DNA from: a virus
IMG/VR virus record: IMGVR_UViG_3300033156_000755
Location: 1 to 26,044 of that record
Reading direction: 5' to 3' (one strand)
DNA: 26,044 bases
Both the position numbers and the translations under genes were made by a program. Position 1 is the stretch's first letter, and each line of letters starts with the position of its first letter. The notes under the pieces were generated by a model that worked only from the letters and a program-made list of their open reading frames with translations, ran no database searches and was not told the DNA's origin. Shown here piece after piece: positions 6,403-23,799 of the stretch.

Positions 6403-6681
6403 TTATTCACCAGAATTTTCCAATTCTTTCCTGCTCTCTCTCAAGCTCTTCTCTGGAACTTCCAAGCCCTTGAGCTGGAAGTTCTCAAAGACAGGTCTTA
6501 CCGATGCAAGATCTATATTCACCTCCTCCCTTTCAAGAGTGTCTTTCACTACAGAGCTGATTTGCCCTCCGAGAGCATCTCGCTCCTGGATCAGGCGATT
6601 GATCTCGCGCTGGAGCAACTCCAGTCTGAGATACATCGCCTCCAACTTTACCCGCTTTTCCTCTTCTAGTCTGAGCAGCAT
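6403..6681 (-). CDS. Coiled-coil protein, function unknown
   Basis: Up to 92 residues, strongly alpha-helical: residues ~1-50 have heptad-like spacing of Leu/Ile with Glu/Arg/Lys (LELLQREINRLIQERDALGG). The tail is acidic (KELENSGE). The start is uncertain. The first ATG (6681) has no ribosome binding site and comes 5 bases after the tRNA-like RNA. An internal ATG at 6636 follows a GGAGG, but only 3 bases away. It may be co-transcribed with the tRNA-like RNA. The secreted protein gene starts 14 bp downstream. Confidence 0.55.
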   Translation of the reverse strand: MLLRLEEEKRVKLEAMYLRLELLQREINRLIQERDALGGQISSVVKDTLEREEVNIDLASVRPVFENFQLKGLEVPEKSLRESRKELENSGE

Positions 6682-6686
6682 TTCTA

Positions 6687-6794
6687 GCCAGGGATGGAGG
6701 ACTCGAACCTCCAGGTCGGTCCTTCGCGTAAGGAGGGCGAAACCGCAAAGGCGTTGGGCCTTTGTACCCTACTCCCCGCACCATGCTCCCTGGC
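6687..6794 (-). tRNA. tRNA or tRNA-like RNA with oversized variable arm; identity unclear
   Basis: Read on the minus strand, the ends pair as an 8-bp acceptor-like stem (GCCAGGGA with TCCCTGGC). A canonical T arm (GGAGG stem, TTCGAGT loop) lies just before the 3' strand. A 4-bp D-like stem (GTGC/GTAC) encloses a G-rich loop. The next hairpin has a 5- to 7-bp stem (CAAAGGC/GCCTTTG). A long variable arm pairs CGGT-TTCGC with GCGAA-GG-ACCG, 9 bp with a GG bulge. Oddities: about 108 nt long, no encoded CCA, and the anticodon loop (CCCAACG) lacks U33 and a purine at 37. If forced, the anticodon would be CAA (Leu). It may be a degenerate class II tRNA, a tRNA mimic or an attachment-site remnant. 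Confidence 0.5.
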
Positions 6795-6825
6795 CGCGCG
6801 CGCTTTATCTGGCATCGCCAGCTTT

Positions 6826-6853
6826 ATTTTAGCTCCTTTGCTTCTCGGGTCAA
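6826..6853 (-). promoter_or_regulatory. Promoter for the tRNA-like RNA
   Basis: On the minus strand TTGACC (6853-6848) and TAAAAT (6831-6826) are 16 bp apart, placing transcription start near 6819, about 25 bases before the tRNA-like fold. A small hairpin (CTGGC-GAT-GCCAG, 6809-6821) lies at the very start of the transcript. Confidence 0.5.
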
Positions 6854-12232: not shown

Positions 12233-12835
12233 ATGCAACGGCAACTAGAACTTGACCTGGGGTTACCCAAAGACTACGAAGCTCTTTATAAGAGGTTAGG
12301 CATCGATCCGAAGGCAGAGGAAAGAAGAAGGGCTTGCCTGGACTGGGAGAAGACAGCCTGTTTGTATTCTTTCCCACGCTTCACGAAGGCATCGTCACAC
12401 CTGACGGCATTCACTTGAAACTTGAAAAGAGAAATGTAGAAGATATCTGGAGAACCGATCGCTTTCATCGACCATGAGCAGAGAGTAACCCAAGACTTTC
12501 CTTTTACCCATCCGTGGGCAGACATCAATATCCCTTTGCATAGCCATCGATCGAATATAGAACAATGGAACCGCAGACCTTGGAGCCGTAAAGCCGAGTA
12601 TTATCGGAGGTGGCCAGAGCGATGCTTTCACTTAGTCAGGAGATCAAACTTAAAGGAGGCGATCTGTTGCCATGCTAAAGACTTTGTTCACTTGAAGCCG
12701 GTCTGGGATAAGGGCTATGGTGGCATGCTTGTCTGGAAAGCTCCAAGAGCGAAGGCCTGCTTTGGCAGGGAATATGAGCACGATATCGAAGATTGGGTCT
12801 TGCTCAAACTAGAAAAGGAGGGATTGCTAAGATGA
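12233..12835 (+). pseudogene. Gene split over two reading frames (twice shifted), unknown function
   Basis: An ORF begins at 12233 behind an AGGAGCAAGG site (MQRQLELDLGLPKDYEALYK) but stops at 12418. Protein-like sequence continues in the -1 frame (DSLFVFFPTLHEGIVTPDG) to a TGA at 12475-12477. From 12440 it is back in the first frame (EPIAFIDHEQRVTQDF, WNRRPWSRKAEYYRRWPERC, ending EYEHDIEDWVLLKLEKEGLL) to 12835. The last part has no plausible start with a binding site. The simplest reading is one gene of ~200 codons with two compensating frame changes, by decay, sequencing error or recoding. The end overlaps the methylase start (ATGA). Confidence 0.5.
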
Positions 12836-14208
12836 AGATCCGAGTTAACCAGATAGTAAAAGACGATGATATCTACCCACGGGTGCGAGTGTCGCGTGAG
12901 ACGATCAAAAGCTATGTGGAAGCCATTAAAGGAGGAGCCAAGTTTCCTCCGATTCTTGTGCAAAACGTAACGGAAAACGGCCAGGAAAAGACCATCTTGC
13001 TCGATGGCTATCATCGGCTCGAGGCTTATAAACTAGCTGGCTTGGAAGACATCGAAGCGACATTCTGGAAAAATGAGACCTTGGAGAAGAAGGAATGGCT
13101 TGAACGATTGAGAATTGTGAGCGGACAGGCTAACATCTCTCATGGCGATCGCCTTTCTGGAAGTGATCTACAGTTTCAATGTCTCAGGATCGTGAAGGAT
13201 AGGCCGTTAGAACGTCTTACCGGTATTGTAAAGGAGCTAGCTGCTGAGTTTGGCGTGAGCCAAAATTATATGTCCGAGTTGATCGGTGCCGAAGTTAGGC
13301 GCCGAAAAGCCACGCGAGACGCGCTGGCTTACAGGCTTTTTCTACTGGGCTGGACTCAAGAGGAGATCGGCAGAGTTATAGGGGTCGGCCAAAGTGCCGC
13401 TGCCAAAATTATGAAAAACCTCGATAGCGAACTTTTTCATAATGAATACCGATCTGGCCTTTCTCCCGAGCAGATAGCTGAACAACACAACCTAGACGAG
13501 CCTCTCGTCTGGGCAATCCTTCTAGAAGGCAAAGACGACATAGAGCGCTTCAAGCTTTTTGGGAAAAGCGAATACGGGAACGATCAACCAAAGCTATCCG
13601 ACTACTGGAAGTTCGCTAAGCGGGATCCGAGGCTCGGTCAGGCTAACTACCCTGGTAATCTTTACGGACAGGAGGCTATGAACATCATTTACCGCTTTAG
13701 CCGTCAAGGCGATCTCGTGGTGGACCCCATGGCGGGTGGAGGAGTAACGGTAGATGCTTGCCTGATCTTGAATAGGCGATGCCGGGCCTACGATATCGAT
13801 CCGAGCAAATCTGGCCGTAAAGACATCGAGCAGCATGACGCTCTTCAAGAATTTCCTCCGAGGGCACAGAATTGTGATCTCATCATTCTTGACCCACCTT
13901 ACTACAAAAAGAAGGAGCGAGAATACGAGTGTTTTGAATTCACAAAGGATCGCGAGACTTATCTTAATAACTTGGCTATTGTGGCAAGGAACTGCTACCA
14001 AGCGCTTAAAGAGAACGGATATCTAGCACTCCTTCATGGGCAGTATATCGATTATGATGATGAAGAAGCCTCGATCCTGAACTCACATCTGGCTAGGCTG
14101 TTTGAAGAAGTCGGCTTTCGACACATTCTTACGATCGAGTCTCCTTTGGATCCTTGGCGCATCCTGCCAGTCACAAAAGACTGGTATATCTTCAAGAAGA
14201 CCAAGTAA
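12832..14208 (+). CDS. ParB-like/HTH/DNA methyltransferase fusion
   Basis: A 458-residue protein starting at MKIRVNQIVKDDD, after AAAAGGAGG. Residues 1-100 form a ParB/Srx N-terminal-type domain (LLDGYHRLEAYK at ~56-67). Two HTH-like segments follow at ~135-150 (ELAAEFGVSQNYMSEL) and ~175-192 (TQEEIGRVIGVGQSAA). Residues ~275-458 are a Rossmann methyltransferase: the SAM-binding motif DPMAGGG (298-304) and the catalytic DPPY (354-357), which point to N6-adenine or N4-cytosine methylation. No partner nuclease is adjacent. It could protect phage DNA, regulate genes or mark replication origins. The ParB-like part may guide the enzyme to particular sites. Confidence 0.8.
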   Translation: MKIRVNQIVKDDDIYPRVRVSRETIKSYVEAIKGGAKFPPILVQNVTENGQEKTILLDGYHRLEAYKLAGLEDIEATFWKNETLEKKEWLERLRIVSGQANISHGDRLSGSDLQFQCLRIVKDRPLERLTGIVKELAAEFGVSQNYMSELIGAEVRRRKATRDALAYRLFLLGWTQEEIGRVIGVGQSAAAKIMKNLDSELFHNEYRSGLSPEQIAEQHNLDEPLVWAILLEGKDDIERFKLFGKSEYGNDQPKLSDYWKFAKRDPRLGQANYPGNLYGQEAMNIIYRFSRQGDLVVDPMAGGGVTVDACLILNRRCRAYDIDPSKSGRKDIEQHDALQEFPPRAQNCDLIILDPPYYKKKEREYECFEFTKDRETYLNNLAIVARNCYQALKENGYLALLHGQYIDYDDEEASILNSHLARLFEEVGFRHILTIESPLDPWRILPVTKDWYIFKKTK

Positions 14209-21006: not shown

Positions 21007-22401
21007 ATGACGATCACTGCGCCTGACCATCCGGTGCTTGACCTGATGGATCCCGCTTCCTGGATCCAGCGAGTCACTGGTGCTGAGCCATGGTCACGCC
21101 AAGAGGAAATTCTAAAAGAACTATTCCGTTCCCGTCGTCTTGTAGTCAGATCTGCGAACGCCGTTGGAAAATCCTGGACCGCGGCCCAAGCGGTCGTTTT
21201 GTTCGCCACCCACTTCCGGCCCGCCGTCGTGGTCACCACCGCGCCTACATTCAGACAAGTTCGTGACATCATCTGGCGAGAGATTCGAAAGACCTGGCGG
21301 GCCGCACTTAACCGAGGCTACAGGCTGGGAGAAGAGCCGCTCCAGACCACGTGGCGACCCGATCCCAACGTGTTAGTTACCGGAATCGCGGTACCTGATT
21401 GGGCGACCGCGAACTTGCAAGGCCTGCACGCCGAGCATGTCCTAGTAGTGGTTGATGAGGCTCAGGGGCTTTCGTGGGACGTGTGGACCGCATTACAGAC
21501 CCTTCTCCGCGGCCAGTTTTCCTACTTGCTTATGATCGGGAACCCGACGGTTCCGGAAGGACCGTTCTATGAAGCGTTTCGTGATCCGCGCTTTGCCAAG
21601 ATGAGCATCTCCGCTTTGGAGTGCCCCAATGTGGTGGAGGGCAAGATAGTGGTTCCCGGTCTTGTGACCAAGGAAGACGTAGAGGAGATTAGGCAAAGGT
21701 ATGGTGAGAATTCCTGGGAGTGGAAAGTGTGGGTCCTGGGCGAATTCGCGGAGCGGAGCGAGAACGTCCTAGTTGCGCTGTCTTGGGTAGAAAAGGCGGG
21801 ACTGAGGAACGAACCCGGGAAAGGAAGGGTGGAAGTCGGGGCGGACATAGCCCGTTACGGCGGGGACCACACGGTGTTCGTGGCCCGCAAGGGAGGCTGC
21901 GCTTTCGCGCTGCAGGAGTGCCCACCCGGAAGCACAATGGAGACGGCGGGCCGATTGATCGCTTTCGCGCGCAGGGTCAAGGCCGAGCTGATCAAGGTGG
22001 ACGTTACCGGCATCGGTGCGGGAGTAGTGGATCGCTTAAAGGAGCAAGGCTACCCGGTAGTCGGAGTGGAATTCGGAGGGCGACCGATAGAGAGGGAGCG
22101 TTTCGAAAACAAGTCGGCGGAGATGTGGTGGAACCTGGCCGAGATGCTGCAGAGGGGCGAGGCTTGGGGCCCTGTGTTCAAGGATAGGAATGTCGTGCGG
22201 GATCTAACCGGCCGGAAGTACAGCTACACCTCGGCTGGGAGGATAAAGCTGGAGTCCAAAGAGGCAATCCGAAAGAGAGGCATTCCTTCGCCGGACTGGG
22301 GGGATGCGGTCGCGTTGGCTTACGCGGCCGTGGACGCGCGGAAGCCGGAAGTGCCTTTACCGGTAGGTATAGGGCGGGAATCGCCATGGCGGAGAAGATG
22401 A
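21007..22401 (+). CDS. terL: Terminase large subunit
   Basis: A 464-residue packaging motor. The N-terminal ATPase has Walker A SANAVGKS (residues 49-56), a Walker B HVLVVVDEAQG with the catalytic Glu, and a coupling-motif region (YLLMIGNPTVPEG). The C-terminal RNase H-like nuclease has its first acidic residue in VGADIARYGGDHTVF, a second in IKVDVTGIGAG and the third in PDWGDAVALAYA. The protein cuts concatemeric DNA and pumps it into the prohead through the portal (start of that gene at 25659). The start chosen follows GGAGAGTAAG. The length is normal for the family and all key residues are present. Confidence 0.92.
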   Translation: MTITAPDHPVLDLMDPASWIQRVTGAEPWSRQEEILKELFRSRRLVVRSANAVGKSWTAAQAVVLFATHFRPAVVVTTAPTFRQVRDIIWREIRKTWRAALNRGYRLGEEPLQTTWRPDPNVLVTGIAVPDWATANLQGLHAEHVLVVVDEAQGLSWDVWTALQTLLRGQFSYLLMIGNPTVPEGPFYEAFRDPRFAKMSISALECPNVVEGKIVVPGLVTKEDVEEIRQRYGENSWEWKVWVLGEFAERSENVLVALSWVEKAGLRNEPGKGRVEVGADIARYGGDHTVFVARKGGCAFALQECPPGSTMETAGRLIAFARRVKAELIKVDVTGIGAGVVDRLKEQGYPVVGVEFGGRPIERERFENKSAEMWWNLAEMLQRGEAWGPVFKDRNVVRDLTGRKYSYTSAGRIKLESKEAIRKRGIPSPDWGDAVALAYAAVDARKPEVPLPVGIGRESPWRRR

Positions 22402-23321
22402 GGATTCGGTTTCTGGTGAGGAAAGGCAATTACGAGATTGTAGATCGGGCCCACGTCGAGCCGATCCTTAAGCACTTGGAAGAAGGCGAGATCGATTACG
22501 AATCTTCTTCCGCTGCCTTGAACGTGTCGCTGTCATGGGAAGTCTTTCCGAAGGCCGACGTTTTCATGTCCCATGGCTTAGCGGACAAGAACTGGCGGAA
22601 CGCGGACAAGATGTCAGGCTACGATCATGTCCTGGTCTCGGGCCCGGCATGGAAAGAAAAGCTAGTGGGCCAGGGCATGTCGCCAGATGCAATCTCGGTG
22701 GTGGGGTATCCTTTCCTTGACCCTGTTTGGGATCTAGAGAGGTCCCGCGAGCTCCTGGTCTGGGCCCCGACCCACAAAGCGACCTCCGACGTCACCACGG
22801 AGGGTAGGCTTTCGGAGACATTGCTGGACCGATTAAGAAAAGAATTCCCTTTGAAAATCGTCGCCCACCCCGTTGGTTCTAAGCGGCTGTCCAGGGACGT
22901 CTTGCCTCGGGCAGCGGTCGTGATAGCGGACGCTGGTTCGACTCTTTACGAGGCCTGGGCCTTTGGCGTTCCGGTTATCTTCCCGGACTGGCTCGTCAAG
23001 GAAGCTATCTTGAAAAAGTGGCCCGGCTCATTTGAAGCTTTGATCTATGAGCGAGGCTTGGGATGGCACGCCAACTCGGAGGGGGAGCTAGTGGATCTAA
23101 TTGGGATGATTTGGAAGACAGGCGAGCTAGGAACTGGCGTGGAGGAGTTCATGGAGGGTATACTTCCATCGGAGCTCCGAGGATGCTCGGGCGAAGTCGC
23201 GGCCAGGGAGCTGGAGAGGCTGCGCGATCTAAAGGTGGAGGTGAAGGTTGAAAGTTCTAGTGATTGGCTGTGGGGGGATAGGGAGTGCGGTGATAAAAGA
23301 GCTTGCAAGCCGAGGGGATAA
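22398..23321 (+). CDS. Glycosyl/glycerophosphotransferase-like GT-B protein
   Basis: About 307 residues from the ATG at 22398, which overlaps the terminase stop (ATGA) behind GCGGAGAAG; an ATG 12 bases earlier is also possible. Motifs by position: FMSHGLADKNW (~56-66), LVSGPAWKEKL, GYPFLDP (103-109), WAPTHKA (122-128), then ADAGSTLYEAWAFGVPVIF (177-195). This order is that of CDP-glycerol glycerophosphotransferases and related GT-B enzymes (TagB/TagF, UDP-GlcNAc epimerase fold). It lacks a large N-terminal domain. The last 25 residues overlap the next gene in another frame. It may modify capsid, tail, DNA or host wall polymers. Confidence 0.65.
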   Translation: MRIRFLVRKGNYEIVDRAHVEPILKHLEEGEIDYESSSAALNVSLSWEVFPKADVFMSHGLADKNWRNADKMSGYDHVLVSGPAWKEKLVGQGMSPDAISVVGYPFLDPVWDLERSRELLVWAPTHKATSDVTTEGRLSETLLDRLRKEFPLKIVAHPVGSKRLSRDVLPRAAVVIADAGSTLYEAWAFGVPVIFPDWLVKEAILKKWPGSFEALIYERGLGWHANSEGELVDLIGMIWKTGELGTGVEEFMEGILPSELRGCSGEVAARELERLRDLKVEVKVESSSDWLWGDRECGDKRACKPRG

Positions 23322-23799
23322 GATCGTGGCGACCTACAACACGAAGACATCGCAAGCGATTGAGCTGGAAAAATCTTTTGGAGTGAGGGTCTTCCGGTGC
23401 GATTTCAGCGATCCAGTCCAAACAGACATTCTCCTTGCTTCGTTCGAGGATCCGCTGGAGCCGTTCGAGGCGGCCGTCTGGACAGCCGGCGTGGTTTACC
23501 CTGGCAAACTCGAGGAGGTGAGCAGGGAGGAGGCACTGAGAACTTTTTCGGTCAATTTCTGGGGACCCTACCTTTTGCTCAGGCACGCTAGGAAGATTCT
23601 CCCGCAAGGTGGGAAGATAATCCTGTTCTCGTCTTCCACGAGCCTGAGAGCTTCGCCGGGCCTAGCGGCTTACGCGGCTTCGAAGGCCGCTCTGAATTCC
23701 CTCGCTCTCTCCGCTGCCGTGGTAGCCTTTCTTTTGTCGGAGGCCGGGGACGCTCTGTCCATGTTCCCGGTCAGGGTACATATGGGGCCATACGTTTGA
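23248..23799 (+). CDS. Short-chain dehydrogenase/reductase, internally shortened
   Basis: 183 residues starting at TTG, right after GGAGGTGAAGG, overlapping the preceding gene by 74 bases. SDR hallmarks are present: GCGGIGS (7-13) for NAD(P) binding, WTAGVV (78-83), N103 in SVNFWG, the FSSSTS serine and Y142-x3-K146 (YAASKAAL). Family members are usually ~240-250 residues. Here the helix after the active site (ALNSLALSAA) runs straight into VVAFLLSEAGDALS, which looks like the C-terminal segment of the family. The ~50-residue substrate-binding part in between is missing. It may be inactive, minimal or repurposed. Same message as the GT-like gene. Confidence 0.65.
   Translation: MKVLVIGCGGIGSAVIKELASRGDKIVATYNTKTSQAIELEKSFGVRVFRCDFSDPVQTDILLASFEDPLEPFEAAVWTAGVVYPGKLEEVSREEALRTFSVNFWGPYLLLRHARKILPQGGKIILFSSSTSLRASPGLAAYAASKAALNSLALSAAVVAFLLSEAGDALSMFPVRVHMGPYV

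Follow-up and report, generated by a model that had tools for sequence, protein, structure and literature searches.

A tRNA-like RNA domain directly before a phage gene without a Shine-Dalgarno sequence: a possible 5' leader

What is a tRNA-like RNA doing immediately in front of a phage protein-coding gene? The question arises on the minus strand of a linear viral fragment, an IMG/VR record of 26,044 bases (the window) that encodes a terminase and a portal protein of the tailed-phage type, whose nearest relatives belong mostly to bacterial phages. An earlier note, made from this DNA alone, had placed a 108-nt RNA at 6794-6687 of that strand, a length that our analysis bears out. The RNA domain is real, with syntenic homologues and compensatory changes that keep it paired (Table 1).

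With respect to its distribution, related records were gathered through the Sak4-like annealing protein and the terminase (85-93% identical), giving a set of 13 including the window. Syntenic copies of the RNA, 84-85% identical, lie at L003:13912-14019 and L004:7904-8013, and these two records are also the only ones besides the window in which the 92-aa gene behind the RNA is present. A fourth related record, L005, stops just short of the locus, and the RNA is present in all three of the phages whose sequence covers it. A covariance model (R1) built from the three RNAs scores them at 129-134 bits and gives at most 15 bits at any other site in the 318 kb scanned; it yielded no further copy in the ten other records of the set, which likewise gave no 92-aa gene. 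An RNA pattern search of viral contigs returned no distant homologue, and a DNA search of phages and plasmids returned only T-arm or chance matches. One additional pattern match, in L041, lies inside an ORF, scores only 14.8 bits and was rejected as a homologue. Prophage relatives were not found in species genomes (genome_contigs) with the Sak4-like protein or the terminase as query.

Table 1. Features of the RNA locus in the window; "all three" refers to the window, L003 and L004.
Feature	Position	Strand	Observation
tRNA-like RNA domain, 108 nt	6687-6794	-	Syntenic homologues and compensatory changes
Closing (acceptor-like) stem, 5' strand GCCAGGGA	6787-6794	-	8/8 pairs in all three
Closing (acceptor-like) stem, 3' strand UCCCUGGC	6687-6694	-	8/8 pairs in all three
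T arm, 6-bp stem UGGAGG/CCUCCA, loop UUCGAGU (6707-6701)	6695-6713	-	18/18 cells paired
Second acceptor-like 5' strand copy CGGGGAG, then UA	6772-6778	-	Strand used by ARAGORN with introns allowed
D-loop-like motif AGUAGGGUA	6765-6773	-	AGUAGGG invariant in all three (alignment)
Helix P3, 5' strand CCUUUGCG	6744-6751	-	24/24 cells paired; RNAalifold choice
Helix P3, 3' strand CGCGAAGG	6721-6728	-	24/24 cells paired; RNAalifold choice
P3 loop GUUUCGCCCUCCUUA, 15 nt	6729-6743	-	CCUCCUU (6736-6730) invariant (alignment)
Spacer UAGAA, 5 nt, RNA to AUG	6682-6686	-	UAGnnAUG in all three
92-aa helical protein gene	6403-6681	-	Directly downstream of RNA, conserved, 84-87% identity
Promoter-like site TTGACC-16-TAAAAT, 31 nt before RNA	6826-6853	-	10/12

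In terms of structure, two elements already described in the earlier note, the 8-bp end stem and the consensus T arm, stand in both relatives. Specifically, the end stem is paired at each position in all three phages, with a two-sided A-U to G-C change in L003, and the T arm keeps its 6 bp and its UUCGAGU loop (of the UUCRANY type) throughout, with two two-sided changes in the stem (G-C to C-G and A-U to G-C). Closing stem and T stem together form 14 continuous base pairs, which constitute an acceptor/T branch.

The remainder of the earlier fold fared less well. The third hairpin that it had proposed, CAAAGGC/GCCUUUG, loses pairs in both relatives, and the D-like stem GUGC/GUAC loses one pair in L004; neither is confirmed as conserved structure. 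The bulged variable arm keeps 26 of its 27 cells but shows one-sided changes only. What the relatives keep best is not a class II cloverleaf in which a 9-bp variable arm accompanies a defined anticodon loop. A different helix, P3, forms 8 of 8 pairs in each of the three phages and includes one two-sided change, and on the strength of these three sequences, which fall short of proof, it is favoured over the variable arm. Taken together, the closing, T and P3 helices have 100% of their cells paired and carry four two-sided changes (shuffle mean 1.4), a number that 8 of 500 letter shuffles attain. Of 500 column shuffles, 1 equals the consensus energy given by RNAalifold. Covariation in relatives, which the earlier note had named as a check on its proposal, was thus found in the closing stem, the T stem and P3. 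The folding energy of the single sequences is weak (z of -2.0 for the window, 0.06 for L003 and -1.2 for L004) and by itself uninformative; the conservation evidence is stronger.

The centre of the RNA, comprising AGUAGGG and the second acceptor-like strand, can be drawn in several ways. The CGGGGAG copy could compete for the 3' strand of the closing stem (6 bp), its second base being G, G and A opposite U, C and U in the aligned window, L003 and L004 sequences, and the second acceptor-like strand could switch with the first. Another drawing of the centre is a tRNA: when introns are permitted, ARAGORN reports tRNA-Arg(CCT) in both the window and L004, a reading that requires an 8-nt insert and gives U37.

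Is the RNA, then, a tRNA? Scans of the kind proposed in the earlier note, with ARAGORN at default settings and Rfam at its gathering threshold, find no tRNA in the window, and the only call outside it is a poorly paired Arg in L003. The best sub-threshold Rfam match in the window is tRNA-Sec (RF01852) at 21.4 bits; L003 scores 17.3 bits and L004 gives no match, all three missing the gathering cut-off of 47 bits. No anticodon-like loop contains UCA, and alignment to the tRNA-Sec model deletes positions there. The branch of 8 + 6 bp, kept in the three sequences, is not the canonical arrangement of a 7-bp acceptor and a 5-bp T stem, and in place of a 7-nt anticodon loop with U33 and a purine at 37 the best-kept third hairpin has a loop of 15 nt. 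As the earlier note had stated, CCA is not encoded (GGC and then UAG follow in all three phages); an encoded CCA is not required in all bacteria. The RNA is not a normal tRNA, having no ARAGORN or Rfam call in the window under these settings, no CCA and no usable anticodon. Between a diverged tRNA and a tRNA mimic, both of which had been put forward, the mimic was the right direction, and the cloverleaf details attached to it are not what the relatives keep best. Since the RNA stops five bases ahead of the start codon of a small phage gene, we consider a leader that controls translation, or a decoy RNA released by processing, more likely than a tRNA.

A working but unusual tRNA, whether resembling tRNA-Sec, an allo-tRNA with a long acceptor branch or a tRNA-Arg(CCU) with an anticodon-loop insert, would account for the long acceptor branch, the sub-threshold tRNA-Sec scores and the ARAGORN reading with introns. 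We regard it as quite improbable, since the branch has 14 bp where canonical tRNAs have 12 and tRNA-Sec has 13 (PMC7609411), L004 has no tRNA-Sec match, the 15-nt P3 loop takes the place of a 7-nt anticodon loop, U stands where purine 37 belongs, the 8-bp version of the stem leaves no U8, and CCA is missing. With tRNA-Sec and the allo-tRNAs with non-canonical cloverleaves (PMC7609411) the phage RNA shares a lengthened acceptor branch and an extra-large size; it differs from them in the still longer branch, in having no anticodon loop, no UCA and no CCA, and in its sub-cut-off score.

The pattern of divergence bears on whether the domain is maintained. The window and L003 RNAs differ at 17 of 108 positions, as against 14 of 29 four-fold sites in the adjacent 92-aa gene (p=0.0007), and L003 and L004 likewise differ at 17 of 108, as against 13 of 27 (p=0.001). 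For both of these pairs, four-fold sites of the neighbouring gene have diverged more than the RNA. Between the window and L004, in contrast, the RNA is no better conserved than the third positions of the gene (16/108 versus 10/80), and the gene is 94% identical where the RNA is 85%, which weakens the argument from constraint. Phages swapping the RNA segment among themselves, or a higher rate of change in the RNA, would fit this last pattern. Within L004:7830-8020, the RNA is as distant from that of the window as the L003 copy is, despite adjoining a near-identical 92-aa gene, and the upstream flank is unrelated. Directly before the RNA, the window (6796-6803, minus strand) and L003 carry an 8-base G/C palindrome, GCGCGCGC; the corresponding palindrome before L004:7904 is GGGGCCCC, a different sequence in which the self-complementarity is kept.

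These data also speak to a degenerating phage tRNA gene, perhaps a former Arg-CCU with its 3' half still intact. A stretch of 23 nt covering T arm and 3' stem, shared without mismatch with tRNA-Tyr of the T5-like phage SSP1, would suit such an origin, as would the tRNA-Arg(CCT) reading in the window and L004. We nonetheless hold decay to be rather unlikely: compensatory changes keep the pairing in all three phages, RNA divergence lies below that of silent sites in two of three comparisons, the closing stem is longer and not shorter than in a tRNA, and the odd features are common to all copies, hence not random decay.

The junction with the 92-aa gene was overlooked in the earlier account of the RNA. 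The spacing to the AUG is a constant 5 nt, and none of the three phages has a Shine-Dalgarno sequence before this start, whereas the same contigs have GGAGG-type or AGGAG sites before many of their other starts; judged by the starts listed, some other phage genes also have no clear Shine-Dalgarno. The encoded protein is modelled by AlphaFold with a long helix at residues 2-52, and a Foldseek search with this model gave no match. Between the window and L003, the 40 differences in the gene fall 5/5/30 over the three codon positions, and those in the frame continued through the RNA fall 8/4/7, which indicates that coding begins at the AUG after the RNA and not upstream. The same counts bear on the idea of a small protein encoded across the RNA, in a frame (ATGCCA...GGCTAG) whose UAG stop is separated by 2 nt from the AUG that follows and which might act by translational coupling. 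This frame is open for 43 codons in the window and L003, but it shows the 8/4/7 distribution in place of the 5/5/30 of a coding sequence, is disrupted by a 2-nt insertion in L004 and has no Shine-Dalgarno sequence. We give it very little credence and, on the codon-position counts and the L004 frameshift, rejected a protein-coding reading of the RNA. Within the 92-aa gene itself, codons 12-18 (6628-6648, minus strand; AAGUUGGAGGCGAUGUAUCUC) keep all of their third positions in the three phages, and this segment contains a GGAGG complementary to CCUCC of the P3 loop.

As for transcription, the TTGACC-N16-TAAAAT site noted earlier is present upstream, matching at 10 of 12 positions, and L003 has TTGACT-18-TACACT at the matching place, the two sites ending 30-31 nt upstream of the RNA. 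No promoter-like site was found at the corresponding place in L004. No terminator-like site lies between the RNA and the gene in any of the three phages, and in a consensus fold of the RNA with 80 additional nt the domain stays separate and the AUG unpaired.

We tentatively read the RNA as a tRNA-like 5' leader that may control the mRNA of the 92-aa gene in a group of phages, and we do so with somewhat less than even confidence. The observations themselves concern conservation, structure and position, and from these we infer function. Several lines point to a leader: the syntenic homologues with their compensatory changes and a consensus energy better than that of 499 of 500 column shuffles; the constant UAGnnAUG spacing without a Shine-Dalgarno sequence in all three phages, unlike many other starts; the promoter-like sites in the window and L003, the lack of a terminator before the gene and the unpaired AUG; the start of coding after the RNA; the lower divergence of the RNA relative to four-fold sites in the window/L003 and L003/L004 comparisons; and the precedent of tRNA-like leaders that raised translation in vitro (PMC9142559). 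Against it stand the number of homologues, three only, the promoter-like site not found in L004, the window/L004 RNA being no more conserved than third positions, some other phage genes without a clear Shine-Dalgarno sequence, the several possible folds of the RNA centre, and the Shine-Dalgarno sequence that the precedent experiments retained and that is absent here (PMC9142559).

Mechanistically, a transcript from the promoter-like site at 6853-6826 would begin about 24 nt before the RNA and continue into the 92-aa gene. The GG of the D-loop-like motif would dock with the T loop to form an elbow, and the resulting tRNA-like body beside the start codon would control ribosome access. One route would be contact with the ribosome in cis, of the kind reported for the yjdF aptamer and for mRNA leaders into which tRNAs were placed; alternatively, a host tRNA 3'-end nuclease might excise the RNA, leaving a near-leaderless mRNA with 4-5 nt before the AUG. 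A bolder version of the leader, which we consider unlikely, is a Shine-Dalgarno-independent start element that would dock in the ribosome as a tRNA does and set the AUG 5 nt after the acceptor-like stem, as a bacterial counterpart of a viral IRES.

A known case of control by mimicry is the thrS translational operator of E. coli, in which the mRNA leader imitates the anticodon arms of tRNA and binds ThrRS. The phage RNA would resemble it as a putative tRNA-mimicking mRNA leader in control of the gene behind; unlike thrS, the phage gene is not a synthetase gene, and it is the acceptor/T half that is mimicked. Nearer in form are the yjdF riboswitch, which folds like a tRNA and acts in cis, and synthetic leaders with tRNA-like elements, which increased cell-free translation by a factor of 2 to 6.3 (PMC9142559). 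These share with the phage RNA a tRNA-like fold just before a gene, with D-loop-like and T-loop-like parts, in an mRNA leader that for the phage RNA is putative, whereas the phage RNA has no Shine-Dalgarno sequence, stands 5 nt from the AUG and precedes a phage gene. The yjdF Rfam model has no match in the window, L003 or L004 at E up to 10. Were the RNA to act as a cis leader, phages would offer a natural case of a gene without a Shine-Dalgarno sequence that is driven by a tRNA-shaped element, and with it a way to test whether bacterial ribosomes can start on a structured tRNA mimic.

The main rival to this leader is a separate, trans-acting tRNA mimic, excised by host tRNA-processing enzymes and serving as a decoy or antisense RNA, a reading that we consider doubtful. 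Its targets could be RNase P, tRNA-modifying enzymes, a tRNA-cleaving defence nuclease or, through the CCUCCUU loop, Shine-Dalgarno sequences. The best argument for it is that loop, which is invariant in the three phages, as is GCGGUUUC in the same alignment, and which is anti-Shine-Dalgarno-like while also providing CUCCUUA as in an Arg-CCU anticodon loop; the paired 5' and 3' ends, the T arm, the D-loop-like motif and a promoter-like site of its own, seen in the window and L003, would suit the mimic as well. A general Shine-Dalgarno blocker would, however, hit many of the phage's own genes with GGAGG sites, and a trans-acting RNA leaves the constant 5-nt junction unexplained. The likeness of the P3 strand and loop to the 16S 3' end is also weak: Smith-Waterman scores for GCGGUUUC..CCUCCUU were reached by 98, 655 and 51 of 3000 dinucleotide shuffles (1.7-22%), and we rejected 16S mimicry, keeping the likeness as a lead only. 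Phage T4 makes stable non-tRNA RNAs, C and D, of 100-140 nt, which are linked to tRNA-type processing and lie in a tRNA cluster; likened by description, the window RNA is of a similar size class, but it lies outside any tRNA cluster. If it is processed, the window RNA would represent a new tRNA mimic of phages whose anti-Shine-Dalgarno-like loop is exposed, and on either reading the domain is small and easily tested.

The earlier suggestion that the RNA is a host tRNA copy serving as an attachment site found no support, and we judge it extremely improbable. The 3' half is tRNA-like as such a site would be, but the 3' halves vary between the phages, and what lies syntenically within the gene block is a complete, full-length structured RNA and not a fragment. 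Neither a tyrosine integrase nor a serine resolvase was found in the 13 related records, some of which are fragments.

Elsewhere in the window, the interval between terminase and portal holds two plus-strand genes (23248-23799 and 22386-23321), one for a short-chain dehydrogenase/reductase (Pfam adh_short_C2, E 2e-25) and one that weakly matches UDP-GlcNAc epimerase; a related record, G002, encodes a wecB epimerase and a glycosyltransferase. A further plus-strand gene (12793-14208) encodes a single protein in which a ParB N-terminal domain, a helix-turn-helix and a DNA methylase domain are combined.
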